From: a virus
Strand: one strand, 5' to 3'
DNA: 64,000 bases
IMG/VR virus record: IMGVR_UViG_3300031578_000009
Span: 1 to 64,000 of that record
Shown: positions 27,074 through 62,739 of the stretch, one piece after another
How the letters are laid out: each line of letters opens with the position of its first letter
Numbering within the stretch: position 1 is the stretch's first letter
Made by a program: the position numbers and the translations under genes
The notes under the pieces: model-generated
What the model saw: the letters and a program-made list of their open reading frames with translations, nothing else
Told to the model about the DNA's origin: nothing
The model's database searches: none

Positions 27074-29188
27074 ATGAGAAATAGAAATAATTATAATCCA
27101 TATACGCAAAACTATATAGCTCCAGTAAATGAGGCTAATATGGTTTATGAGCCAACATATGATCCTTCTGAAGCTGATAAATGGGCAAATTTATTACAAC
27201 AAAGGCAACAGCGTTATGATGCAGGAAGACAGCAATTATCTCAAGCTGAAGCTCAGTTTGGTGGTATGGAAACTCAAGCTCCAGATATATTGCAACAGCG
27301 TGTAAATGATTTTACTACAAATGTTGAAGATATGGTTTCAAAGCATTATAATGGAGATTATGGATTAGCTGTAAATGATATATATAAACAAATTGCTAAA
27401 GAAAGATCTAATCCATTTTATAAATATATAGCAGAACAAAATAATCAGGCTAAAATGTTACAGGAAGCTAAATTAAGGAATCCTGATTCATTTTATACAT
27501 ATAATAATAACACATTAAGTCCACAAGAGCAATTATTAAAAGCTCAACAAACTGGAGACGTATCAGTATTCCAACAAAATTTTGGATATAAACCAGATAC
27601 GTATGCTCTTGCTGAAAAACAATTAAGTAATGTTAGAGCAAATTCATTTGACAATTTAGTATCAGATTGGACGGATTCAGAAAAAGCTGGATTGGCTAAG
27701 GCTGGTATAATCAATGTGGATAAGTTATTAAAAGGATACAAATCTGCTGGAATAAGTCAATCAAGATTAGACAGTTTAAAAGAATCTATGGCTCAATCTA
27801 TGCTTAATCAAACTCCATATTTTGAACACATGTATAGTAATGAACAAGTTCAAGTTGGTGAAGATAAACAAGGTAATCCAATTATGAAACCAAGAGCATT
27901 GGTTGAAGCAGAAAAAGTAATTGAACAAGCTTCTCCACAATTTGTATTTAATCAAGTTGATAAAAATATTCAGAATCTTAATGGTAAAAGTGGATCTGGT
28001 GGTAAAACTCCATTTTCACTACAAAGATCTGTTAGTGGAGATCCAATAATTGATAAATCAACTCAATCGAGCATTAATGGATTAATTGATAACATAACAA
28101 AATATAATATTGATTTAGATAATCCTCAGTTTAAAGATTCTAAAATAGCTGATTTATTTAAAGCACATGCTGGGTATAGAACTAGTGAGTCTGAAACTAT
28201 GGGGAATATTTCAGACAAGATTCCAGTATTAAATTCTATATTTGAAGCAATGAATGTTAAAATGCCAGAATCAGTGTCAAACTTAATATCAGAAGTTGAA
28301 CCAACTGGTGTATTACATGCTGCTCAATTATATAAGAATTTGACCGGATTATATAGTAAAGCTTCAAGTTTAGAAAGTAAATTAGCATTAGGTCTTGCTA
28401 AACAACTTACTGGAGAATCAACTGTTGCTGATGCTAAAGATTTTGTAAAAACATTTGAAACAAAATATGGTATTAATTTAGATGGAATGTCAACTAAAGA
28501 TAAATTTGCAATTGCAACTCAAGCTTCTTTGGGAGAAACAGCAGTACAGGGACAGTTAATACCACTTGGAGAAACTTCAACTGAAGGTTATTATAATACA
28601 CAAAGATTAAATAAAAATCTTGATAGCGGAACTATTAATTTTGATATATATGTTAAAGAAGATAATGGTAATATGAAACAAGTTCCATTTGAAAAAATAC
28701 ATAAGGAGTTAAGTCTTCCAAGTGATTTTAAATTCTCTGATTTTAAAGCATCTACATTTAATCCATCAACTGGAAGATTAAGAGCAAATTATTATGATTA
28801 TAAAGATAAAAAATTCAAATCTATTGAGTTTACAGATCAAACTATAAAGAATCAAATGAGGCCAATAGAAAGATTAAATCAACAGATGAATTCAAGAAAA
28901 GATCAAAATTCTCCAGCTAAAGGATTTGGTATAACTGATTATTCTTATGAAGGCGGTAATGGTAAATTAATTTCAGCTTATGATTTTACTCAAGATCAAA
29001 ATGGTGCAGTTAAACTAATTAAGAGAACTTCATTTGTTCCTTCTGATGTACAAACTCCAAAAACAAGAAAAGAAGCATTAGAATTAATACATAAATATAA
29101 TTTTGATAATAATGGTAATTTATTACCAAATGCAAACATAGGAGAATTGGAAGATTACTCTGTTGCTTTAATGAATCAAATTAACTAG
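27074..29188 (+). CDS. Large virion cargo/ejection protein
   Basis: A 704-residue, Gln/Asn-rich, mainly helical protein with no membrane segment and no catalytic motif that I can see. The N-terminal 130 residues look like an extended coil (DKWANLLQQRQQRYDAGRQQ). The C-terminal half is mixed with strands. It stops six bases before the giant polymerase gene and is probably packaged with it. Confidence 0.55.
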   Translation: MRNRNNYNPYTQNYIAPVNEANMVYEPTYDPSEADKWANLLQQRQQRYDAGRQQLSQAEAQFGGMETQAPDILQQRVNDFTTNVEDMVSKHYNGDYGLAVNDIYKQIAKERSNPFYKYIAEQNNQAKMLQEAKLRNPDSFYTYNNNTLSPQEQLLKAQQTGDVSVFQQNFGYKPDTYALAEKQLSNVRANSFDNLVSDWTDSEKAGLAKAGIINVDKLLKGYKSAGISQSRLDSLKESMAQSMLNQTPYFEHMYSNEQVQVGEDKQGNPIMKPRALVEAEKVIEQASPQFVFNQVDKNIQNLNGKSGSGGKTPFSLQRSVSGDPIIDKSTQSSINGLIDNITKYNIDLDNPQFKDSKIADLFKAHAGYRTSESETMGNISDKIPVLNSIFEAMNVKMPESVSNLISEVEPTGVLHAAQLYKNLTGLYSKASSLESKLALGLAKQLTGESTVADAKDFVKTFETKYGINLDGMSTKDKFAIATQASLGETAVQGQLIPLGETSTEGYYNTQRLNKNLDSGTINFDIYVKEDNGNMKQVPFEKIHKELSLPSDFKFSDFKASTFNPSTGRLRANYYDYKDKKFKSIEFTDQTIKNQMRPIERLNQQMNSRKDQNSPAKGFGITDYSYEGGNGKLISAYDFTQDQNGAVKLIKRTSFVPSDVQTPKTRKEALELIHKYNFDNNGNLLPNANIGELEDYSVALMNQIN

Positions 29189-44826: not shown

Positions 44827-45948
44827 TTAATCAAATTTTAATAGAAAATCTGGATTGATAGCTTTAAATGATGAAATCTTTTTTCCATCTTCTATACATC
44901 TAAAAACTATTCCTTCTCTCGGAATATTTGCTAATGTAGATTTTCCTTTAGTAAGATTAATAATTTTATCAACAGTATCTCCAAGATATTCTAATCTATC
45001 CATGCCTAAAAATGGAACAATATTTAAATTATATTTTTTACAAAACATATTCATTTCATGATAATCATAATGATATCCCTTTTCATGATCTATAATATTA
45101 AATACCCACATAGTAGGTTCTGTAACACCATATTTATTTCCTTGAACTTTAGTATCACCTTGTTCTCCTTGAATTGTTAAGGTAGGATTTTCTTTAAGTA
45201 TTTGTTCTAAATTGTATTTCTTGGCAATTTTCCAATACAGAGAATTTTTATCATTTGTAGTTAAATTTCTACTACATACAACAAATTGATATTTCTTAAA
45301 TGGTAATTTACTTAGTATTCCATTAAATCTTGGAACCATTTTACCTGTCCATGTACCTGATTGATAGTCTATTTTTTCAGTTATATAGAATATTTTATCT
45401 TTATATTGTTTTAATACTTGTGGAATATTTTGTATTCTTTCTTCATCTGTTTTAGAAACCCAATAAGGAAATCCAGATTTACCTTTCTTGCTTAAAAACA
45501 ATCTTCTAAAGAGACTATATCTCAATAAGAATTTCTTTAACTTGGACTTCTCTAACTTAATTTTATTTTCTAATTGTTCAATTTCAGTTCTTTCAGAAGG
45601 AGATAGGTATTTAGTTATCCCCATCCACTCAGTTACGTCTTGATGTTCCCCAAATTTACCAGAATCTACTGAAAGGTAAGAGGTAGGTAGCACAAGACCC
45701 ATTGAAATTTGCCCACGAAGTTTAATGGTTCTTATTCTAAATTTTCTTTCTCTAAGGAATTCAAATTCAGGTTTTTCTGGCATTACGGAATCAACTTCGC
45801 AATAAACTACCTTATCTCCAACTTTAAAATTATCTTTTTTAGCAATTACACATTGCCAACCAAGTATTCCACATAATTCAATTTTATCTGCACCATCAAT
45901 AGGCTTTATCCACTCTATTTTTTCTATATGAGCAAGTTTCCTGTCCAT
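44827..45948 (-). CDS. RNA ligase, DraRnl/Rnl5-like, with altered motif I
   Basis: A 373-residue protein. The N-terminal OB-like part (about 1-90) has GWQCVIAKKDNFKVGDKVVY and the FEFLRERKFRIRTIKLRGQ segment seen in Deinococcus-type RNA ligases. The nucleotidyltransferase part has motif I TEKIDY (190-195, Lys192 as AMP acceptor), motif IV EGIVFR (345-350) and motif V SFKAINPDF (360-368). The usual KxDG is KIDY here, with Tyr195 replacing glycine. It would seal nicked RNA or repair host-cleaved tRNA. It is the last gene of the - strand operon and ends next to the bidirectional terminator. Confidence 0.8.
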   Translation of the reverse strand: MDRKLAHIEKIEWIKPIDGADKIELCGILGWQCVIAKKDNFKVGDKVVYCEVDSVMPEKPEFEFLRERKFRIRTIKLRGQISMGLVLPTSYLSVDSGKFGEHQDVTEWMGITKYLSPSERTEIEQLENKIKLEKSKLKKFLLRYSLFRRLFLSKKGKSGFPYWVSKTDEERIQNIPQVLKQYKDKIFYITEKIDYQSGTWTGKMVPRFNGILSKLPFKKYQFVVCSRNLTTNDKNSLYWKIAKKYNLEQILKENPTLTIQGEQGDTKVQGNKYGVTEPTMWVFNIIDHEKGYHYDYHEMNMFCKKYNLNIVPFLGMDRLEYLGDTVDKIINLTKGKSTLANIPREGIVFRCIEDGKKISSFKAINPDFLLKFD

Positions 45949-52160: not shown

Positions 52161-52954
52161 AATATATCTTGTATTAAAATATCATTTTCATCAAACTTAC
52201 TATATAATTCTATTCTATCTGGATAATTCATATTAACATCTAATTCTTTCTCATAATGCTTAATTAATGATTCTTCTCTAATGAGAATCTTCTTTATTAA
52301 ACCACCTTCTTGAGAATTATAATGGAATGTAATTATTCTTTCTTTAGCTTGTTTACTAATTAATGAATATTTACCATCTAATAATAATTTATAATCTTCT
52401 ATGAAGTTATCTGGAATTATAAATTCATATAGTACATATCTATTATTGATATCTATTGTTCTTACAAAACATTCATGTTTGATTAAATATTCCTCTTGAG
52501 CTTTAAATCTTGAAGACTTGGAAAATTTCAACAATATAAATATAGAATTTTCTGCTTTATGTTCTATAAAATTACAATCTAAATATCCATTCATTAAATA
52601 TCCAATATTTCCACTATTATATTCAATATAGGAAGCAAGCGTTTTATTTTTGAATATAAGTGGAATTATAAATAGTGAAGTTTTATTATAAATAGATTCT
52701 AAAACATAAAATGTTTTTAAATCTTTTTTGCTTTCTATTATATGATTAGTTTTATACTGGATATCAAAGTTATTTACAGAACAATTATACATATCTCCAA
52801 GCTGAAGAATAGAATCATTAAATTCTATTGAACTTATGATTCTATTGTCTTTGTTAATTATATAATTGCTATTTGGAAATGTAATCATCATCTCACAAAT
52901 ATTTATTGGAGTAAAACTCACTCCATAGTTCTCTAACGCTTGCTTTTTATCCAT
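52157..52954 (-). CDS. Protein of unknown function next to the exonuclease
   Basis: A 265-residue, mostly beta protein with an Ile/Asn/Tyr bias and four cysteines. No catalytic pattern, membrane segment or repeat stands out. The start shares one base with the exonuclease stop, so they are translated together. Recombination or replication partner roles are possible from position only. Confidence 0.5.
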   Translation of the reverse strand: MDKKQALENYGVSFTPINICEMMITFPNSNYIINKDNRIISSIEFNDSILQLGDMYNCSVNNFDIQYKTNHIIESKKDLKTFYVLESIYNKTSLFIIPLIFKNKTLASYIEYNSGNIGYLMNGYLDCNFIEHKAENSIFILLKFSKSSRFKAQEEYLIKHECFVRTIDINNRYVLYEFIIPDNFIEDYKLLLDGKYSLISKQAKERIITFHYNSQEGGLIKKILIREESLIKHYEKELDVNMNYPDRIELYSKFDENDILIQDIL

Positions 52955-53847
52955 TAAAAGTCTATTTTTATTTCTTCATTCAGTTTTTGTATTTCTGTTA
53001 TTATTGGAAATTCTGGTAATCGGCCAATTTCTCGCATGAAATCATCATTGCAATCTAATAAATGTAAAAGTCGATAATTCTTTTGAAATTCATAAACTCC
53101 TTTTGATCTACCAAGTCCATCAATTGTTTTCTTTTGTCCACTTGGTGTTTCATAGTACATTCCCCATATATATCCATGTAGTATTTCATGTGAATCTAAT
53201 TTATTATTGAATATTCCACAATTCTCAGGGAATGGAGTTATAACATTATCTCCAGCATCTCCAGATATTAATTGAAAACTTTGCCATTTTAAAGAATCTT
53301 CTATTGAAGTTTCAATCCACCAACCTTTAATTACATCTTCCTCTTGAATCTGATACATTACATCTTCTTTAACTAATGCTTTAATATCATCTTTTAGCTT
53401 ATAGGTATAATTAAAATTTTTGCCTGGAATACTTTGTAATAAATCTTTATCTGGAGAAACTAATATTTTATCAAAATATGTTATATCATCATCTAAGATA
53501 TTTTCTTTCAAATCATTATTTATCCAATATGCTATCAAATCATCGGATTCCATTAAATCCATCCATTGAGCATTCCAATTCTCTATTAAATAAGATTTAA
53601 GTGTTTTAATCCATTTTAATTGAGTTGGATACTTACTTCGATTTGACTTATATAATGGATCAATGTTGTGACGAAAATATTTATCTTTACTAATAAAAAA
53701 TACATAATGAGTTGCTTCTGTTTTAATAAAAATATTCTGGATTTTTTCATCCAGAATATTTATACTTTCCTCTAATGTATTTTTACTACTATGATAAACT
53801 AGTCCATCTGCATCAACTAATACTAACTTCTTCTGTTGGTCTTGCAT
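52954..53847 (-). CDS. 5'-3' exonuclease (FEN / T7 gp6-like)
   Basis: A 297-residue protein. Acidic metal-binding sites appear in the order expected for this family: LVDADGLVYHS (10-20), FRHNIDPLYKSNRSKYP (58-74), MDLMESDDLIAYW (96-108), VSPDKDLLQSIPG (129-141) and LISGDAGDNV (192-201), with GLGRSKG (244-250) as the helix-hairpin-helix turn. It would remove RNA primers and supply resected ends for recombination, together with the Sak4-like ATPase and SSB. It overlaps the upstream gene by 35 bases. Confidence 0.82.
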   Translation of the reverse strand: MQDQQKKLVLVDADGLVYHSSKNTLEESINILDEKIQNIFIKTEATHYVFFISKDKYFRHNIDPLYKSNRSKYPTQLKWIKTLKSYLIENWNAQWMDLMESDDLIAYWINNDLKENILDDDITYFDKILVSPDKDLLQSIPGKNFNYTYKLKDDIKALVKEDVMYQIQEEDVIKGWWIETSIEDSLKWQSFQLISGDAGDNVITPFPENCGIFNNKLDSHEILHGYIWGMYYETPSGQKKTIDGLGRSKGVYEFQKNYRLLHLLDCNDDFMREIGRLPEFPIITEIQKLNEEIKIDF

Positions 53848-54328
53848 ATTCTATAAATTCTTTACTAAGATTTAATTGTTTTTCTTTGTCATAATCTTCC
53901 ATAGTAGACTTTAATAAATCAACTCCAAATATATCATTAAGATTTCTCATATTAATAACCTGCTTTCTACTGCTCCATCCAAATTTGTTAATTGCAGTAA
54001 TGATTCTTCTATAATCACCACTAGATAAGTTTGATTTATCAATTAAAGCCATTGGAAGTTCTAGATTATTTCTATTATAACAAACAATTAGTCCCATTGC
54101 ATCAAGGCTATTACGTATGATCCCATTACCAACATAATACTCTGCTGTTGAATTGTTTGTAATAAGGCTTCCATCTACAGATAATATTTCTTCAAAGTTG
54201 AATTTATCTTTTAAATCATGAACATATCTACGTTTAGTATTAGAATTAATCTGAAAATATTTTCTGGTTTTAAATCCCCTTTGATTAAAACAATATGGAA
54301 TATATTCTTTTGTCTTTTGTATAATCAT
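53813..54328 (-). CDS. Unknown protein co-translated with the E1-like enzyme
   Basis: A 171-residue protein with a basic N-terminus (KTKEYIPYCFNQRGFKTRKY), a middle containing VDGSLITNNSTAEYYVGNG and NNLELPMALIDKSNLSSGDY, and an acidic end. No UBL, JAMM or E2 motif is visible. The start overlaps the E1 stop by four bases (ATGA), which links it to the ubiquitin-like cassette, and its end overlaps the exonuclease. It may be a substrate adaptor of the cassette or a separate recombination protein. Confidence 0.5.
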   Translation of the reverse strand: MIIQKTKEYIPYCFNQRGFKTRKYFQINSNTKRRYVHDLKDKFNFEEILSVDGSLITNNSTAEYYVGNGIIRNSLDAMGLIVCYNRNNLELPMALIDKSNLSSGDYRRIITAINKFGWSSRKQVINMRNLNDIFGVDLLKSTMEDYDKEKQLNLSKEFIEYARPTEEVSIS

Positions 54329-54984
54329 AATACTTCAATTAAAAATGGTTCTCCAAATTCGCTTATTTTAAATGGAAGATTACATATTTCTTCATTTGCA
54401 TATTTATTAATTAAATAATTAACCAATACATGAGTAATTCTAGCTCCTATTAGCATTCCAAAATAAGCAGTTTGTTTAAATGTACATGGTCCATCATCTA
54501 CTTCTGAATCATCAAATAATGTAGCCTCATATTGTTCTTCCCTACCTTTAGTAACTACATATACTTCATATAGGTTCGCTCTTAATCTCCCGTCAATCAG
54601 CAATTCTCTATTATCCTGTTTACTCCATTTTTCAAATACTTGTTTTCTGGTAGCCATATTATCCAATCCAGTAATCATAATTGGAAAATACTCATTATTA
54701 TATTTTGAATTGAATTGCCTTATTGAACAATTAGATTGTTCTTGACAATTTTGTAAAATAGAACTAACTTTATATTTACCAATTTGATTTTTTTTGAAAT
54801 TTTGAGTTCCAATATTTATAGCTTCAACTTTATCTGGATCATATATCCAATAAGTTGCTGGAACTGTTTTGGTTAATGCAAATAATGCATTTGATCCAAT
54901 TCCACCAGTTCCAACTAATATTATATGCTCATTTGAACTTTTTTCATACCAAGGAGCATCTTTAAATCTATCATTGTATTCCAT
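54325..54984 (-). CDS. E1-like (ThiF-family) adenylating enzyme of a ubiquitin-like cassette
   Basis: A 219-residue protein. GTGGIG (25-30) is the ATP-binding loop, Asp49 with Glu54, Asn57 and Gln61-Asn62 follow as in ThiF/MoeB/UBA, Gln67-Lys70 is the conserved Q..GK, and GLDNMATR (106-113) replaces the SADNxxxR motif. Cys167 in GPCTFKQTAY is the best candidate for the thioester cysteine. It would adenylate the C-terminus of a ubiquitin-like partner. It is short, with no extra adenylation domain or ubiquitin-fold domain, as in bacterial E1s. It overlaps the JAMM gene by 14 bases. Confidence 0.82.
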   Translation of the reverse strand: MEYNDRFKDAPWYEKSSNEHIILVGTGGIGSNALFALTKTVPATYWIYDPDKVEAINIGTQNFKKNQIGKYKVSSILQNCQEQSNCSIRQFNSKYNNEYFPIMITGLDNMATRKQVFEKWSKQDNRELLIDGRLRANLYEVYVVTKGREEQYEATLFDDSEVDDGPCTFKQTAYFGMLIGARITHVLVNYLINKYANEEICNLPFKISEFGEPFLIEVL

Positions 54985-56047
54985 AAAGTAAATTATTAAT
55001 AGTTATATCAAATATTGGATTAGTTTCAAATTTATCTCTTAAATCTTCCATTTTAGAACATGCTTCAAGGCAATTTTTACGTAAATTAGAATCTGATCCA
55101 AATTCAAAATCATGAATAATTTCTAAATTAGTTTCCATAGCAACTTCGTATTCATCATAAGCAATTTCTTCATCTTTTGATAATTCATTATTAATTTTCT
55201 CCATTGCATCTCCAATACTTGAATAATATTTACCAGAATTTAATGAAATTAACTTTTTAAGAAAATTATCAACAGTTCCTGTTTTCTTATAAGTCTTTGT
55301 TAATGTTTGTAAATCACTATTCCCACCTTGATTTAGCCATCCTGCATTATAATCATCATTCCAATCTTCTTTGAAATTATATTGTTTTTGCCAAGATTGC
55401 TGACCAAATGTTTGTACTGGTTTAATTGCTGTTTTTTCTTTTTTAAGTTCATCAATTCTTTTATTCAACCAATTAATACTATTGAATTTTGTAGGCATAT
55501 CAATATCTAAATCTCCAATAAGAATAATATCTTCTTCTGTAGATGATTTAATATTAATTAATTTACCATCCGTACCTTTAATGGATGAATTATACAATAC
55601 TTTAGTTTTAGATGGAAATGCAACTTTACATTTATATTTTCTATCAAAACTAACAATCAATGATAAATAATAATTAAAGTTTGTAGCATTTGATAATAAT
55701 TCATCAGAATCGGTGTTACTAAAAAACGCTTGCATATTATGATGCGTATGCACCATACCACTATTACTATTAATTAAATTTTCATTAATATCATAAGCAT
55801 CCATTACTTTACCAGAATATTCGAATTCAGTATATGTATGACTACCAATATTCATTGGAAATATAAAATCAACTGTAAATTCCAAATCTTTCATTTGAAA
55901 CAAGTTACCTTTTGTTAATTTGTAAAATAATATTCCAGACCATTCTGTACTACCAATAGCAGAATGAAGATTATCTATTACATTAATAATTTCTTCATCT
56001 AATACTATTTTACCTATTGTTCCTAATTCTTGAGTTTTTTTATCCAC
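54971..56047 (-). CDS. JAMM/JAB metallopeptidase of a ubiquitin-like cassette
   Basis: A 358-residue protein with a GTG start at 56047 (no nearby ATG in frame). The JAMM signature is complete: Glu35 (TEWSGIL), His100 and His102 (VHTHH), Ser110 and Asp113 (SNTD), spaced HxH-x7-S-x2-D. This zinc site cuts isopeptide or C-terminal bonds of ubiquitin-like proteins. About 220 residues follow, acidic and helical (NNELSKDEEIAYDEYEV), longer than a minimal JAB domain. It overlaps the E2-like gene by 8 bases and the E1 gene by 14. Confidence 0.85.
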   Translation of the reverse strand: MDKKTQELGTIGKIVLDEEIINVIDNLHSAIGSTEWSGILFYKLTKGNLFQMKDLEFTVDFIFPMNIGSHTYTEFEYSGKVMDAYDINENLINSNSGMVHTHHNMQAFFSNTDSDELLSNATNFNYYLSLIVSFDRKYKCKVAFPSKTKVLYNSSIKGTDGKLINIKSSTEEDIILIGDLDIDMPTKFNSINWLNKRIDELKKEKTAIKPVQTFGQQSWQKQYNFKEDWNDDYNAGWLNQGGNSDLQTLTKTYKKTGTVDNFLKKLISLNSGKYYSSIGDAMEKINNELSKDEEIAYDEYEVAMETNLEIIHDFEFGSDSNLRKNCLEACSKMEDLRDKFETNPIFDITINNLLYGIQ

Positions 56048-57251
56048 GTTGTTTTAGTTTTTTATTAATTATATATTGTGAAAATTCTTCTTCTATCTTA
56101 CTAATAACTTCATTTAATATATCAACATGTATTGATTTTTCTAAATTATTTTCTAAATCATCATCTGGAATTACTATGTTTTTGATATTTTCTTCCTTAA
56201 ACATTACTTCAGAACCTGTATCATTATATCTTTTATAAAAATAATTCTGTTCAAAATTTTCAGTTACTGAAATTCCATTCCTATAAGAATATAAATAATG
56301 TTCAGGAACAATCTCATTTAAAACTTTACGAATATGATCTTTAGAATCATCTGATAATTTAATATCATAATAATCAATATCATTTATATTATAAATAAAA
56401 CTAAAATCATTGATATGCGATAACAATAATAAATAAACTGTATTTGCATCATAAAAATATTCAATGTCTGCTTCTTTAAATCTATTTTCATCACATAGTA
56501 CATTATCAATCTTTCTATATGGAACTCCCTCAATACTTTCCCAAGAAATATATTCTTTTAATAAGTAATAGAATGGAACAATATTTAAAAAACAATGTTT
56601 TGTTGAATTTCTAGTTCTATCAAATACATTTTTTATTTGAGTATCTCCCATACATAAATCATTATCATATGTTCCAATGTGTGAGTGAGATAGATGTGAA
56701 AATATATAACTATTTCTTAATTCTCTTTCCGACACTGTAGTTCTTGCAAACTGTAAATAATGTAATCTTTTATTACTAAATGTTAATTTCATATATAAAT
56801 CTTTCATCTCAAGAGATTGTTCAAATGAATTTGAAATTATTACAGAAGGAATCCATATAATTATACTATATCTATAACCATCTTTGTAGCTATTATCATT
56901 TTGTAAATCTACATATTCTTCACCAAATACTTCTATTGCTTTATTCAAATAAAATGTTCTAAGTTTTTCATCAGACATTTTGTCTACAGAATCTATGATA
57001 TTATTTAATTTTATATCATGAACTTCTTTTTTAGTTAATGGTTTAACTTGACTACTTAAATCTTTAATTGAAAATGCAATAGGTGACACTTTATTATTTA
57101 CATCCGAATAATACATTTTATTTGCTACTCTTCCTTCTTTCTTGAAAATATATTGTTTGTTATACATTACATATTTACTTTGATAAACATTATTTGGTAA
57201 TTTATCTAATTCTTTATCAGAAAGTCTTAATATTTCTTCTGGAAGTACCAT
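56040..57251 (-). CDS. E2-like (UBC-fold, PRTRC protein B-like) protein
   Basis: A 403-residue protein. Residues about 127-215 resemble the UBC core: YSIIIWIPSVIISNSFEQS, a long strand/helix stretch, then SHLSHSHIGTYDNDLCMGD (185-203). This mirrors the E2 motif HPxI...G.ICLG, with Cys200 as the catalytic cysteine and His189/His191 before it. PRTRC system protein B and bacterial E2-like proteins share this arrangement. The flanking regions are longer than in eukaryotic E2s. The call is by motif and by its neighbours (Ubl candidate, JAMM, E1). Confidence 0.65.
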   Translation of the reverse strand: MVLPEEILRLSDKELDKLPNNVYQSKYVMYNKQYIFKKEGRVANKMYYSDVNNKVSPIAFSIKDLSSQVKPLTKKEVHDIKLNNIIDSVDKMSDEKLRTFYLNKAIEVFGEEYVDLQNDNSYKDGYRYSIIIWIPSVIISNSFEQSLEMKDLYMKLTFSNKRLHYLQFARTTVSERELRNSYIFSHLSHSHIGTYDNDLCMGDTQIKNVFDRTRNSTKHCFLNIVPFYYLLKEYISWESIEGVPYRKIDNVLCDENRFKEADIEYFYDANTVYLLLLSHINDFSFIYNINDIDYYDIKLSDDSKDHIRKVLNEIVPEHYLYSYRNGISVTENFEQNYFYKRYNDTGSEVMFKEENIKNIVIPDDDLENNLEKSIHVDILNEVISKIEEEFSQYIINKKLKQRG

Positions 57252-57269
57252 ACATTAATATTTTTTAAA

Positions 57270-57289
57270 AGAGGGGATTTCTCCCCTCT
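57270..57289 (-). promoter_or_regulatory. Stem-loop between the Ubl candidate and E2-like genes
   Basis: Perfect 8-bp stem (AGAGGGGA / TCCCCTCT) with a 4-base loop, 6 bases after the Ubl stop and 18 bases before the E2 start. On the - strand it is followed by TTTTAAAAAATATT, a weak T-run. It may act as an attenuator so that the Ubl is made in excess over E2, JAMM and E1, or as an RNA 3'-end stabiliser. Confidence 0.55.
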
Positions 57290-57295
57290 ATTTGG

Positions 57296-57832
57296 TTAAA
57301 ACAAATTTAATAATTGTTGTGCTTCAAAATCTATGTCGTCTTCAGTCGTTTCATCCAATAATTTTACTTTATTAGTGGCTTTTGGTTCAGTTTCATTACT
57401 CATAACCTTTAAAATATAAGTTCCTGGATATAAATGAATTTCATCTACTTCTTCTGCTTGATTATTGTTTTTTTCAATCGTATCAAGAAATTCATTCAGT
57501 TCTTGAGTAGTTTTATGAGTATAATTAAATGGAACATCACCACCATTATCTTTATATTCTTTAACTGCATCTCTTGCTTCCCAATAACCTAATGCTCCTG
57601 CTTTTGATTTAGTTGGCATTACAAACATTACTGAATCAATTTCTGGTAATACTGCTTGGTCTACTTCAAATGAAGCTTTAGAAGCTCTGTCAATTAGCTT
57701 TGATGAACTCCAATCAATACCTAATTCAGTAATTTCTTCTTTTAACTCACCTAATGTACGAGCTGATGTTTCTACTTTCACTAACTCAGTTTGAGTTAAT
57801 AACTTTAATTTAATTGTTCTTTTTGTTGTCAT
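57296..57832 (-). CDS. Candidate ubiquitin-like (beta-grasp) protein
   Basis: A 178-residue protein. The first 75 residues match a beta-grasp rhythm: strands TIKLKLLTQ and ELVKVET, helix TLGELKEEITELG (26-38), then strands ASFEVD and DSVMFVMPTKSKAG (66-79). The last is a form common in small phage Ubl-like proteins and PRTRC protein C. The C-terminal 100 residues are acidic and likely flexible. There is no C-terminal GG; an internal Gly-Gly lies at 97-98. It is the first gene of the cassette, just after the primase (overlap of 4 bases), and is followed by a stem-loop. Confidence 0.5.
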   Translation of the reverse strand: MTTKRTIKLKLLTQTELVKVETSARTLGELKEEITELGIDWSSSKLIDRASKASFEVDQAVLPEIDSVMFVMPTKSKAGALGYWEARDAVKEYKDNGGDVPFNYTHKTTQELNEFLDTIEKNNNQAEEVDEIHLYPGTYILKVMSNETEPKATNKVKLLDETTEDDIDFEAQQLLNLF

Positions 57833-58851
57833 AATTTGATTTTTAAATCTGTTAACTGATTTTGTAAATAAAAATTAAACTCACGTCCACCATCTTTATA
57901 CCACATGTCTGTGGGGTCTTTTGGTGCACGTAATGGATTATGTATGTATGGTATTTGATAAATTTGAGAAAACTTCTTTGCATATTTTATTCCAGCTTCA
58001 TCATTATCAAAATAAATTACAAGATTTGGATATCTTTTTTTAAGTTTATAGAATACTTTGTCTGGTATCCAAGATCCTTCATTATTTGGAGCTATTGCTA
58101 TTGGTTTATTATATATTCTCCAAAATGGCCCTGTATCTTTAAAACTACTTGTTATAAAGCATATATCTCCACTTTTTGGCAATAAATCCCATCCCTGTAC
58201 GATTGTATTATCAACATTTGACAACCACTTTCTATAAGATGGTTTTTGTGGAAAATACAACTTCCTTCTGAATATTCCATTATGCCAATAATAATCCATA
58301 CTATATGAATAATCATCACATACATATAATTTTTCATATATATTCTTTTTTTCAGAAGTTAATCTGAAATAAGAAATTGGATTTATATTAGCTTTAATAA
58401 GCATATTTTCAGCCCATGACTGACTACCCCACCATTCTAAATCATGCTGAAGAAGTTCTCTCTTTTTAATTGTTAATATTGTTTTGTAATCCTCATATTC
58501 AACTGTATGAATTTGTTGTTCTGAATACTTAGTATAATTATTACTTCCTGAACCTCTTAAATACAGATTAAAATCAATATTTATTTTTTCTAATACTTCT
58601 TTAAAAGTTAATCCATATTTTCTACTAACAAATTGGAAACAATTTAAAGCCCCATCTTCACCAAAGTCTTTATATAAATAAGTGCCATTAAAATATGAGA
58701 TAACAGCACTTGGATTTGGATCATTTCTAAATTCAGCTTTAAAATGTTTTCCTATCTTTTGAAAATACTTTGAATATTTCTTATATATATCTAATGGACT
58801 AACTCTTTCAAGAATATTTTCTATTGTTAATAGTCCATTTGTTTTAAACAT
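57829..58851 (-). CDS. DnaG-like primase with TOPRIM domain
   Basis: A 340-residue protein. The N-terminus has GKHFKAEFRNDPNPSAVISY and YKDFGEDGALNCFQFV, the core of the DnaG zinc-binding module, but the zinc cysteines are absent. The TOPRIM segment has ITSSFKDTGPFW (about 229-240) and VIYFDNDEAGIKYAKKF (277-293), the DxDxAG site being DNDEAG. The final part (NPLRAPKDPTDMW) is typical of primase ends. It makes RNA primers for phage DNA replication. No helicase domain is fused. Confidence 0.75.
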   Translation of the reverse strand: MFKTNGLLTIENILERVSPLDIYKKYSKYFQKIGKHFKAEFRNDPNPSAVISYFNGTYLYKDFGEDGALNCFQFVSRKYGLTFKEVLEKINIDFNLYLRGSGSNNYTKYSEQQIHTVEYEDYKTILTIKKRELLQHDLEWWGSQSWAENMLIKANINPISYFRLTSEKKNIYEKLYVCDDYSYSMDYYWHNGIFRRKLYFPQKPSYRKWLSNVDNTIVQGWDLLPKSGDICFITSSFKDTGPFWRIYNKPIAIAPNNEGSWIPDKVFYKLKKRYPNLVIYFDNDEAGIKYAKKFSQIYQIPYIHNPLRAPKDPTDMWYKDGGREFNFYLQNQLTDLKIKL

Positions 58852-61435: not shown

Positions 61436-62739
61436 TATATGACGGAGCGTAAAACCAACTCATTACGAAGTGTGGGTTGGATGTAAGCGACTCCTTTACA
61501 CTCACATTTTGACATTTTGTTTGTTTTGTATAAATTGGCATAATTTTTGTAATATATAAACTATGTTTAAATCGTTCAAATACAGAATTTACCCAACCGA
61601 GCCACAAAAAGAGCTTATTGCCAAACATATTGGTAGTAGTCGTTTTGTGTTTAATCTTGCGTTGGAAACTAAAAACGCTGCATATATTGGTAACAAACAT
61701 AACTACAGCCCTTTCGATTTAATTAAACAATTACCAGAACTTAAAAAAGAATGTCCTTGGCTAAAAGAAGTAAACTCACAAAGCTTACAACAATCTATAC
61801 AAAATATGGATATTGCTTTTAAGAAATTCTTTAAAGGAGCTGGTTTTCCAAAATTTAAGTCTAAAAGAGATAGACAATCTTTTTCAATACCACAAAATGT
61901 AATAGTTGAAAATAATCTTTTGATAATACCAAAGTTTAAAGAGGGTATTAAAATATTTTTACATAAACCTACACAAGGTATTGTAAAAAGTGGAACTATC
62001 AGTGTAACACCTACAGGTAAATACTTCGTGTCAATACTTTGTGATACTAAAGAAGATATGCCAATTAAGGTTTCTATTAATGAAAACACCACAATAGGTA
62101 TTGACCTTGGAATAAAAGACTTTGCCATTACCTCAGATGGAGAGGTATTTGATAATCCTAAATTTCTTCGTAAAGCACAAAGTAAATTAAAATATGTACA
62201 ACGTAAATACTCAAAACACAAAGGCAAGCGAACTAAAAAGAAACTTGCCAAATTACATGAAGATGTAGTAAACAAACGCAAAGATTTTTTACACAAAGTT
62301 TCAACTAAATTAATTCGTGAGAACCAAACGATAGCCCTTGAAACTTTAGCGGTTAAAAATATGGTTAAAAACCACAATTTAGCACAAGCAATTAATGATG
62401 TAAGTTGGTCAACTTTTGTTTCTATGTTGGAATATAAAGCTGGTTGGTATGGTAAAAATATCCTACGAATAGGACAATTTGCACCATCTTCAAAAACTTG
62501 TTCAAACTGTGGGGCTATCAACAATGAACTACAACTAAAAGACCGTGAATGGACTTGTGGCAGTTGTTCTACTGTTTTAGACCGAGATGTTAATGCTGCT
62601 TGTAACATAAAATCATTTGCTTTAAAAAATATTTTGTCTGGGGAACACAGACTTAAAAGTCAAGACGAACTGCCTACATTAGTAGGAGTAATGACTCTTG
62701 AAGCCAAACCCATCGCCTTTGGCGTGGGTGGGTAGTTCA
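61436..62739 (+). mobile_element. IS200/IS605-family (IS1341-type) TnpB-only element
   Basis: The element carries tnpB but no transposase tnpA. The left end has an imperfect hairpin (CCAACTCATTAC 61455-61466 with GTGTGGGTTGG 61470-61480, loop GAA). The right end has the typical hairpin CCCA-t-CGCC / GGCG-TGGG (62709-62728) followed by GTGGGTAGTTCA. It interrupts the - strand operon between the Sak4-like gene and a 32-residue gene. The exact left end is uncertain by a few bases. No target-site duplication is expected for this family. Confidence 0.8.
61563..62735 (+). CDS. tnpB: TnpB RNA-guided nuclease
   Basis: A 390-residue, full-length TnpB. The RuvC catalytic residues are intact: Asp181 in GIDLGIKDFA, Glu260 in IALETL and Asp342 in DRDVNAA. 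The zinc ribbon has Cys313/Cys316 and Cys332/Cys335. TnpB uses a right-end-derived RNA to guide cleavage next to a short target-adjacent motif. The frame is undamaged, so it may be active. Its strand is opposite to the surrounding operon. Confidence 0.9.
   Translation: MFKSFKYRIYPTEPQKELIAKHIGSSRFVFNLALETKNAAYIGNKHNYSPFDLIKQLPELKKECPWLKEVNSQSLQQSIQNMDIAFKKFFKGAGFPKFKSKRDRQSFSIPQNVIVENNLLIIPKFKEGIKIFLHKPTQGIVKSGTISVTPTGKYFVSILCDTKEDMPIKVSINENTTIGIDLGIKDFAITSDGEVFDNPKFLRKAQSKLKYVQRKYSKHKGKRTKKKLAKLHEDVVNKRKDFLHKVSTKLIRENQTIALETLAVKNMVKNHNLAQAINDVSWSTFVSMLEYKAGWYGKNILRIGQFAPSSKTCSNCGAINNELQLKDREWTCGSCSTVLDRDVNAACNIKSFALKNILSGEHRLKSQDELPTLVGVMTLEAKPIAFGVGG

Follow-up and report, generated by a model that had tools for sequence, protein, structure and literature searches.

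What do four closely packed minus-strand genes do that stand between a DNA primase gene and a 5'-3' exonuclease gene in a viral genome? The question is raised by positions 54325-57832 of a 64,000-nucleotide stretch (positions 1 to 64,000 of the 95.7-kb IMG/VR record IMGVR_UViG_3300031578_000009; this whole stretch is referred to as the window), where the genes ubl, e2, jab and e1 very likely constitute a complete, conserved and phage-owned cassette for the conjugation of a ubiquitin-like protein (Ubl). A sequence-only reading of the window had delimited four open reading frames (ORFs) here and placed them inside a replication operon; their coordinates and strand proved exact, and Pfam searches on the neighbouring genes confirmed the flanking primase and exonuclease. 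The minus-strand run reads primase, ubl, e2, jab, e1, n, exonuclease. Therein, ubl (57296..57832) encodes the putative Ubl precursor of 178 amino acids (aa), e2 (56040..57251, 403 aa) an E2-like protein, jab (54971..56047, 358 aa, GTG start) a JAB/JAMM metallopeptidase and e1 (54325..54984, 219 aa) an E1/ThiF-like activating enzyme. A gap of 44 nucleotides (nt) lies between ubl and e2, and overlaps are found at the junctions primase/ubl (4 nt), e2/jab (8 nt), jab/e1 (14 nt), e1/n (4 nt) and n/exonuclease (35 nt). The virus itself is a crAss-like phage, as had been proposed: PHROG portal and major head proteins are present in the window, and the portal protein matches 147 phage records, the matches listed being chiefly crAss-like and Flavobacterium Fpv phages, all with less than 60% identity.

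The strongest argument that these genes belong together comes from their distribution. Using tblastn, E1 was found in 74 of 50,697 phage records (29 Flavobacterium phages and 45 others, chiefly crAss-like) and JAB likewise in 74, with equal group totals, by which the two sets of hits were compared rather than record by record. Queries with E2 and Ubl of crAss001 retrieved 45 records each and no Flavobacterium phage; profiles do detect the Flavobacterium ones. In crAss001, DAC15, cr111_1, cr128_1 and Fpv1, annotation and profiles place the four genes in one order downstream of the primase. An annotated uracil-DNA glycosylase (UDG) gene lies 3' of n in crAss001, cr111_1 and cr128_1; in Fpv1, UDG precedes Ubl, and a reverse-strand endonuclease gene lies inside a split jab.

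Two larger sets of loci were then assembled from IMG/VR. A scan with an E1 alignment kept 80 of 151 relatives, which together with the five GenBank phages and the window gave 86 loci that were searched with iterated profiles; e1 was found in 86, jab in 84, e2 in 84 and ubl in 82 of them. The four loci without ubl (L037, L039, L052 and L054) are cut by the contig end, and in all 82 loci with enough flank ubl-e2-jab-e1 is complete and in order. This set includes duplicates (L003 and L040, for example, are the same phage), and the E1 of L007 is identical to that of the window. A second, JAB-seeded scan kept 80 of 165 relatives and, with four loci from metagenome-assembled genomes, yielded 84 loci, 72 of which have enough flank; all 72 are complete in the same order. 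The other 12 consist of L116 and L177, which are complete with short flanks, eight short loci with jab and some neighbours, L105, whose 1.5 kb hold jab and no other cassette gene, and L094, which is limited to E1 and n. The two sets overlap in part: sampled every 50 bases, 32 of the 80 JAB-seeded loci have an exact 200-base stretch in common with an E1-seeded IMG/VR locus, and 40 of the 69 complete IMG/VR loci of the second set have none. Neither an E1 nor a JAB without the remaining cassette was found among loci with enough flank, 80 relatives having been kept per scan. Because the same four families recur in the same order in 82/82 and 72/72 loci, chance can be excluded, and the gene order for which the sequence-only reading had suggested a search of Crassvirales genomes was recovered.

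The cassette is not a family-wide trait, as the rule that all Steigviridae carry it had to be rejected on account of three Steigviridae genera without it. It is present in the Flavobacterium genus Fipvunavirus, which its record does not place in Crassvirales, and in cultured phages, namely crAss001, DAC15, the PhiCrAssBcn isolates and Flavobacterium phages. A cellular origin was considered and likewise rejected: three of the four metagenome-assembled-genome contigs have a complete cassette and L094 (3.7 kb) only E1 and n, and no clearly cellular copy was found in a scan of genome contigs that rested on two short peptide patterns. With PADLOC, E1 was the sole match in the window, to E1-E2 models.

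The catalytic residues of the two best recognizable enzymes are nearly invariant; the counts given here refer to distinct aligned rows with a letter at the respective site (1 to 30 letterless rows per site are omitted), among which pieces of split genes and repeated entries of one phage may occur. E1 matches Pfam ThiF (3.7e-13) with one ThiF domain in its 219 aa, as well as PRTRC_ThiF (1.6e-10), and carries GTGGIG, D49, R133 and, in a CTxKQT motif, C167. GxGG, D49 and R133 are found in 115/115 rows and C167 in 113/113. JAB, which has a C-terminal extension, matches Pfam Prok-JAB at 0.0074, below the cut-off, and displays the full JAMM site with E35 (122/122), H100 (122/125), H102 (121/121) and S110 and D113 (both 123/123). 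The sequence-only reading had named this JAMM site and the E1 residues GTGGIG, Asp49 and Cys167, all of which are borne out by the relatives.

A plausible candidate for the modifier is the product of ubl, which had been put forward as a beta-grasp protein. Structure prediction agrees: the AlphaFold2 model (64 rows) has a predicted local distance difference test (pLDDT) score of 85.5 and comprises the strands and helix of a beta-grasp in residues 1-75, is less sure near Gly79 and continues with helices at 83-95 and 109-125, a stretch of low confidence and a final helix. Foldseek comparison of this model with the PDB gave 11 matches at E<=0.001 (best 1.6e-4), including DWNN, ubiquitin variants, ubiquitin and UBX domains, two of the 11 superposing poorly with root mean square deviations (rmsd) of 13.9 and 7.4. 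In VIA-align, a DIX domain (Z 9.7) came out on top together with ubiquitins (Z close to 9.3, rmsd close to 2), tied within 1. As modelled, the 178-residue protein is a clear beta-grasp with one Ubl domain.

Gly79 (codon 57596-57598) is found in 120/120 rows and is the sole invariant column besides Met1 among 74 distinct Ubl sequences. It lies at the end of the fold, with residues 78 and 80 of the model being the last ones aligned, against residue 76 on the ubiquitin side (6nyo_E, 7wfc_B). This end mostly reads K-S-G, with Ser before the Gly in 64 of the 74 sequences and Lys before that in 52, and the predicted mature Ubl of crAss001 ends in ...KKIKSG. Beyond the Gly, a tail follows that varies in sequence and length, from 1 residue (L086) or 5 residues (L036) to 99 residues with predicted helices in the window and 217 in L049. 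An invariant Gly at the fold's end with a tail of variable length behind it is the pattern that a Ubl precursor processed by JAB would show. The first 40 or so tail residues have a common pattern (70 tails) and are helical in the window model. In L049:3322-4260, the tail carries a ribosomal protein L7/L12 C-terminal domain (PF00542, 3.1e-10, residues 162-224), and the tail of one of 64 members weakly matches HeH/LEM (E 0.0056). One phage (L056:2509-3500) has two tandem ubl genes.

The E2-like protein is the most divergent in terms of recognizable sequence, as Pfam gave nothing at E<=1 for window e2, and the E2 profile matched among PDB sequences solely a cellulose-binding domain (0.026). Its structural model is nevertheless confident (pLDDT 92.2, predicted TM-score 0.83). 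Among the VIA-align matches listed, 43 of 50 are titled E2 or UEV, the rest being six Mediator-containing complexes and one Fts-Hook complex; the best is the TSG101 UEV (Z 7.3, 118 residues, 3.6 A). The elements follow each other as in a UBC domain, with strands at 114-174, then His186, Cys200 and helices at 205-234. Given this one-sided list of matches and the H-C motif, a UBC-like domain is likely in the modelled E2, albeit with weaker support than for the Ubl fold. Regarding conservation, H186 is present in 123/123, C200 (codon 56652-56654) in 123/124 and E238 in 124/125 rows; E238 is part of E238-S239, which is followed by G242-x-P244. The sequence-only reading had described an HxH motif upstream of Cys200 within a UBC core. 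Its cysteine is near-invariant, but HSH at 189-191 is not conserved, the conserved histidine being H186 (74/74 sequences); as for the core, the model is UBC-like, without a Foldseek match at E<=0.001 and with no Z above 7.3. Single E2 members also weakly match Ubl-like models (SAMP1 0.032, moaD_arch 0.043, Ubiquitin_At1g33420 0.011).

The E2s are only 15-30% identical to that of the window, and near-invariance of the catalytic residues at such distances indicates that the enzymes encoded by the cassette are active. Split genes fit this notion. In six E1-seeded loci (L004, L032, L056, L066, L071 and L075), jab is split, in every case at the codons of the JAMM HxH or right next to them, e2 of L085 is interrupted at its conserved His (HSH), and ubl of L068 directly after KKIKSG; further splits occur in the second set (e.g. 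L092, L110 and L172). Rfam detects group I introns at gathering score in L032, L071, L075 and L085 and one below gathering score in L066 (E 2.5e-7), and finds none in L004, L056 and L068. Homing introns tend to occupy conserved, important codons, and splits at catalytic codons are for this reason in line with active enzymes. Speculatively, introns of a single type might be able to enter both jab and e2 by way of the HSH coding word that the two genes have in common there.

Starting from the gene set and its order, the conserved catalytic residues, the Ubl fold and the UBC-like E2 model, a pathway of processing, thioester formation and reversible conjugation early in infection may be proposed. 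JAB would cleave the Ubl precursor behind Gly79, where the beta-grasp ends, and so free it of its tail. E1 could then adenylate Gly79 and accept the Ubl as a thioester, probably on Cys167, from where it would move to Cys200 of E2 and on to a lysine (or another nucleophile) of a protein present in early infection. At a later stage, JAB may strip the Ubl from its target again. A precedent for the first step is the processing of BilA by BilC, as described in the consulted part of PMC11354881. It is considered highly probable that all four proteins act in a single Ubl pathway, and conjugation of the phage Ubl by the mechanism outlined here is held with good, though somewhat lower, confidence.

Several points weigh against this interpretation. 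Ubl convincingly matches no Ubl family (window ubl has no Pfam match better than 0.088, and one of 64 members matches DIX at 0.0023), and its profile has no sequence match in the PDB. Because the tail contains a conserved helical segment of its own, its role may go beyond being shed. Regarding E2, the absence of Foldseek matches at E<=0.001 was mentioned above, a Z of 7 by itself could reflect a common arrangement, none of 65 members matches a Pfam E2 family or NCBIfam PRTRC_B at E<=0.1, and Ser replaces Cys200 in one of the 124 rows. Since E1 is minimal, its acceptor cysteine is a guess by position, and no E3 was identified. In addition, some copies are broken by what look like frame breaks: those in e2 of L023 and L045 lie away from the motifs, and the one in e1 of L065 spans the Cys motif.

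How does the cassette relate to known systems? One functional parallel is the PRTRC system of plasmids and bacteria, operon type 6d of Iyer et al. 2006, which combines a Ubl, an E2-like protein, JAB, E1 and a helical protein and thus has four functions in common with the phage cassette. The E1s are detectably related (hhalign probability 99.1%, E 2e-18, with 21 of 21 members matching the PRTRC_ThiF model at E<=1e-4), and phage JAB and PRTRC A are related around the JAMM motif (69.9%, E 4.1e-5). In contrast, hhalign gave 0.5% for phage E2 against four PRTRC B proteins and 0.1% for phage Ubl against two PRTRC C sequences, with no PRTRC_C match of the window Ubl at E<=1; these values likewise count against a straightforward reading of the two proteins. 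The gene order is also comparable, as one of four plasmids fetched (Paraburkholderia) has a complete C-F-B-A-ThiF arrangement that equals Ubl-(F)-E2-JAB-E1; the stretch from Polaromonas is without an annotated C, that from Pelobacter without an annotated A, and the genes of Deinococcus are dispersed. Other features differ. The conserved histidine precedes the cysteine in phage E2 and follows it in the four PRTRC B proteins, consistent with the His after Cys reported for type 6d E2-like proteins in the part of PMC1779556 used here, and the phage Ubl is a precursor with a tail, whereas in the two PRTRC C proteins, both of them short, little follows the fold. Window E1 reaches 40.8 bits against a cut-off of 144.75 for PRTRC_ThiF (TIGR03736) and JAB 12.4 bits against 101.8 for PRTRC_A (TIGR03735). 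Judged from these sequences, the phage cassette is not a PRTRC member, yet it probably functions like PRTRC-type systems and has common ancestry with them in E1 and JAB.

Bil systems (BilABCD), to which the sequence-only reading had likened the locus, also encode Ubl, E2, JAB and E1 as separate genes, and their JAB BilC processes the BilA precursor. According to the sections of PMC11354881 on which this comparison draws, however, Bil is a bacterial defence with a two-domain E1, a tandem Ubl and a CEHH E2 motif. The phage cassette has a single 219-aa adenylation unit as E1, one beta-grasp as Ubl and an H-C motif in E2, so that the likeness does not extend to E1 and Ubl and membership in Bil was rejected. 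Type II cyclic-oligonucleotide-based antiphage signalling systems (CBASS) with Cap2/Cap3 employ E1, E2 and JAB chemistry and a Gly at the C-terminus of the modifier, but Cap2 unites E1 and E2 in one protein and conjugates the cyclase (PMC10097602, relevant sections); with separate E1 and E2 genes and a beta-grasp Ubl, the phage cassette is not one of them. Finally, the lambdoid tail proteins TAPI (Ubl) and TAPK (JAB) represent a phage-encoded Ubl with JAB, for which the relevant portion of PMC1779556 describes neither E1 nor E2 and which are located in tail genes. Titles and abstract starts listed in searches of open-licence literature contained no description of a phage-encoded E1-E2 cascade, although two of the papers so listed (PMC12129868 and PMC13011352) contain both 'crassvirales' and 'ubiquitin'. 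The terms ubiquitin, ThiF and metalloprotease have 0 occurrences in PMC7886860, PMC10136315, PMC10354031, PMC10569736 and PMC6235969.

Clues to the purpose of the tagging come from the site of the cassette. In the three cassette-less Steigviridae genera, primase and UDG both stay in place with other genes between them. In cr108_1 and Cellulophaga phage phi14:2, this slot holds mutually matching ATP-grasp, COOH-NH2 ligase and glutamine amidotransferase genes, that is, an amidoligase cassette (L096:27279-34335 and L097:22025-27669, respectively, assigned by gene matches), and an unknown protein common to both slots adjoins UDG (cr108_1 locus 27279-28739). The slot of cr116_1 (Pamirivirus) contains, among other genes, rIIA (phrog_612, 7.6e-17) and rIIB (phrog_609, 5.6e-35; L098:10117-12764). 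Amidoligase cassettes have been proposed to modify peptides or proteins, and rIIA and rIIB of T4 are known for overcoming Rex exclusion. When nine slot proteins of cr108_1 and cr116_1 were compared by blastp with the ORFs of the 86 E1-seeded loci, which span about 7 to 10 kb on each side of e1 or less, none had a match at E<=1e-3. The region between primase and UDG hence looks like a place for exchangeable host-interaction modules, although many other phages have COOH-NH2 ligases as well (315 records) and the comparison rests on three cassette-less genera, both of which count against such a rule. By annotation, neither cassette is found in the 20-22 kb around the primase of crAss002, cr113_1 and cr10_1, which belong to other families.

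A phmmer comparison that started from 171 mechanically called ORFs of DAC15, with the window standing in for its record and stretches of at most 12 kb from four genomes left out, adds a view over longer distances. Fifteen DAC15 ORFs have relatives in both crAss001 and the window. For 12 of these, relatives also turn up in two or more of the cassette-less phages cr108_1, cr116_1 and phi14:2, whereas the remaining three, Ubl, JAB and E1, have none there; e2 and n gave no window match in this single-sequence test. Across the distance that separates DAC15 from the window, the cassette persists as portal, head protein and primase do. At close range, its absence is not unique, because 29 DAC15 ORFs have relatives in crAss001 but lack them in all three phages without the cassette, and besides the four cassette genes and n these include 24 others, a point that counts against the present reading.

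On this basis, several functions can be weighed. As related phages put rIIA/rIIB or an amidoligase cassette into the same slot, host takeover or counter-defence, taken jointly, is the preferred purpose, with a probability that falls just short of even. SUMO or ubiquitin act at eukaryotic replication forks, and the Ubl might analogously tag the replication or recombination proteins of the phage itself, with the tail keeping it near DNA. The replication link drawn by the sequence-only reading stands as far as position is concerned, since primase and exonuclease enclose the cassette in the window and replication genes surround it in the five GenBank phages, and the conserved, helical tail segment right after the Gly together with the single HeH/LEM match would suit such a role. 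Yet this HeH evidence is weak, the tail in L049 contains a ribosomal L7/L12 domain, and unrelated genes occupy the slot in three related genera while primase and UDG are unchanged, from which we infer a lean toward host takeover or counter-defence. Tagging of replication proteins thus appears unlikely, even if it is the best placed of the other explanations. A less probable variant is that the cassette matures or cross-links virion proteins, for which the JAB and Ubl proteins known from lambdoid tail assembly (PMC1779556, in the part used) and moderate size discrepancies among crAss001 virion proteins, which according to their authors may reflect modification or anomalous migration (PMC6235969, in the passages concerned), could be cited. 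The cassette is found among replication genes and not among virion genes, though, and a word search of the main text of the virion atlas (PMC10172136) returned 0 occurrences of gp76-gp79 and of ubiquitin.

Conceivably, E1 and JAB could also interfere with a Ubl-based host defence (Bil or type II CBASS), the Ubl serving as a decoy; the sequence-only reading had considered action against a Bil-like host defence. Such defences employ the same chemistry (PMC10097602 and PMC11354881), and the slot accepts rIIA/rIIB as well, but a full cascade with its own E2 exceeds the needs of a decoy, so that this explanation is as improbable as virion maturation. Least likely is a sulfur-carrier pathway of the ThiS/MoaD type, which the label 'thiamine biosynthesis protein' implies. 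While JAB and Ubl-like proteins also accompany sulfur pathways according to the part of PMC1779556 considered, and window E1 scores best against the ThiF model, which all of 21 members match, its 43.5 bits are far under the 159-bit cut-off, every complete locus has an E2-like gene with near-invariant Cys and His, and no rhodanese or other sulfur-using enzyme is annotated beside the cassette in the five GenBank phages. An identity as thiamine biosynthesis genes was rejected in view of this E2-like gene and the low score.

Returning to host takeover and counter-defence, a more far-reaching picture can be sketched, which is tentative and more doubtful than the joint purpose itself. Ubl tagging would be a core, all-or-none module of a large crAss-like group, seated in an exchangeable host-takeover slot in which chemically different means to modify proteins or neutralise host responses would have been swapped repeatedly, and the variable tail, L7/L12-like in one phage, might guide the Ubl to its targets before release by JAB.

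The neighbourhood of the cassette includes further genes. In the window, the upstream slot border is formed by the DNA primase (57829..58851, minus strand; Toprim_2 6.1e-5, PHROG primase 3.3e-30), and the downstream neighbour is the 5'-3' exonuclease (52954..53847, minus strand; 5_3_exonuc_N 7.3e-11). Gene n (53813..54328, minus strand, 171 aa), a fast-evolving companion 3' of e1, is found in 55 of the 86 loci, may be missed in others and carries a weak YYxGxGxI-type motif. It matches no Pfam family at E<=1 and was rejected as a second E2 or a PRTRC component, given hhalign probabilities of at most 0.8% against phage E2, phage Ubl and PRTRC A, B and C. The gene n product of L004 ends in EDLPF, which we take to resemble the tip of SSB proteins. 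Elsewhere in the window, a transposase gene (61563-62735, plus strand; phrog_506, 2.9e-121) in the minus-strand replication region is probably an insertion sequence, and an RNA ligase gene (44827-45948, minus strand; phrog_968, 3e-65) marks the end of the minus-strand gene block. DAC15 encodes a ribose-phosphate pyrophosphokinase and a nicotinamide phosphoribosyl transferase close together (L189:37021-39762); such pairs are known from the rebuilding of NAD+ against defence.

Taken together, the sequences suggest that crAss-like phages with the cassette tag other proteins with a small protein while they infect. Ubl systems of bacteria are known to serve as weapons against phages, whereas the full system predicted here is on the side of the phage. 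Cultured phages with the cassette offer a direct way to test its function. In crAss001, a mature Ubl ending in ...KKIKSG would leave a Ser-Gly remnant (+144.05 Da, calculated) on modified lysines after trypsin digestion, which can be searched for in existing infection proteomes. If the proposal is true, it would provide functions for four genes conserved in an abundant group of gut viruses; in crAss001 these genes correspond to gp79-gp76, and at present they are labelled hypothetical, metalloprotease or 'thiamine biosynthesis' in GenBank.

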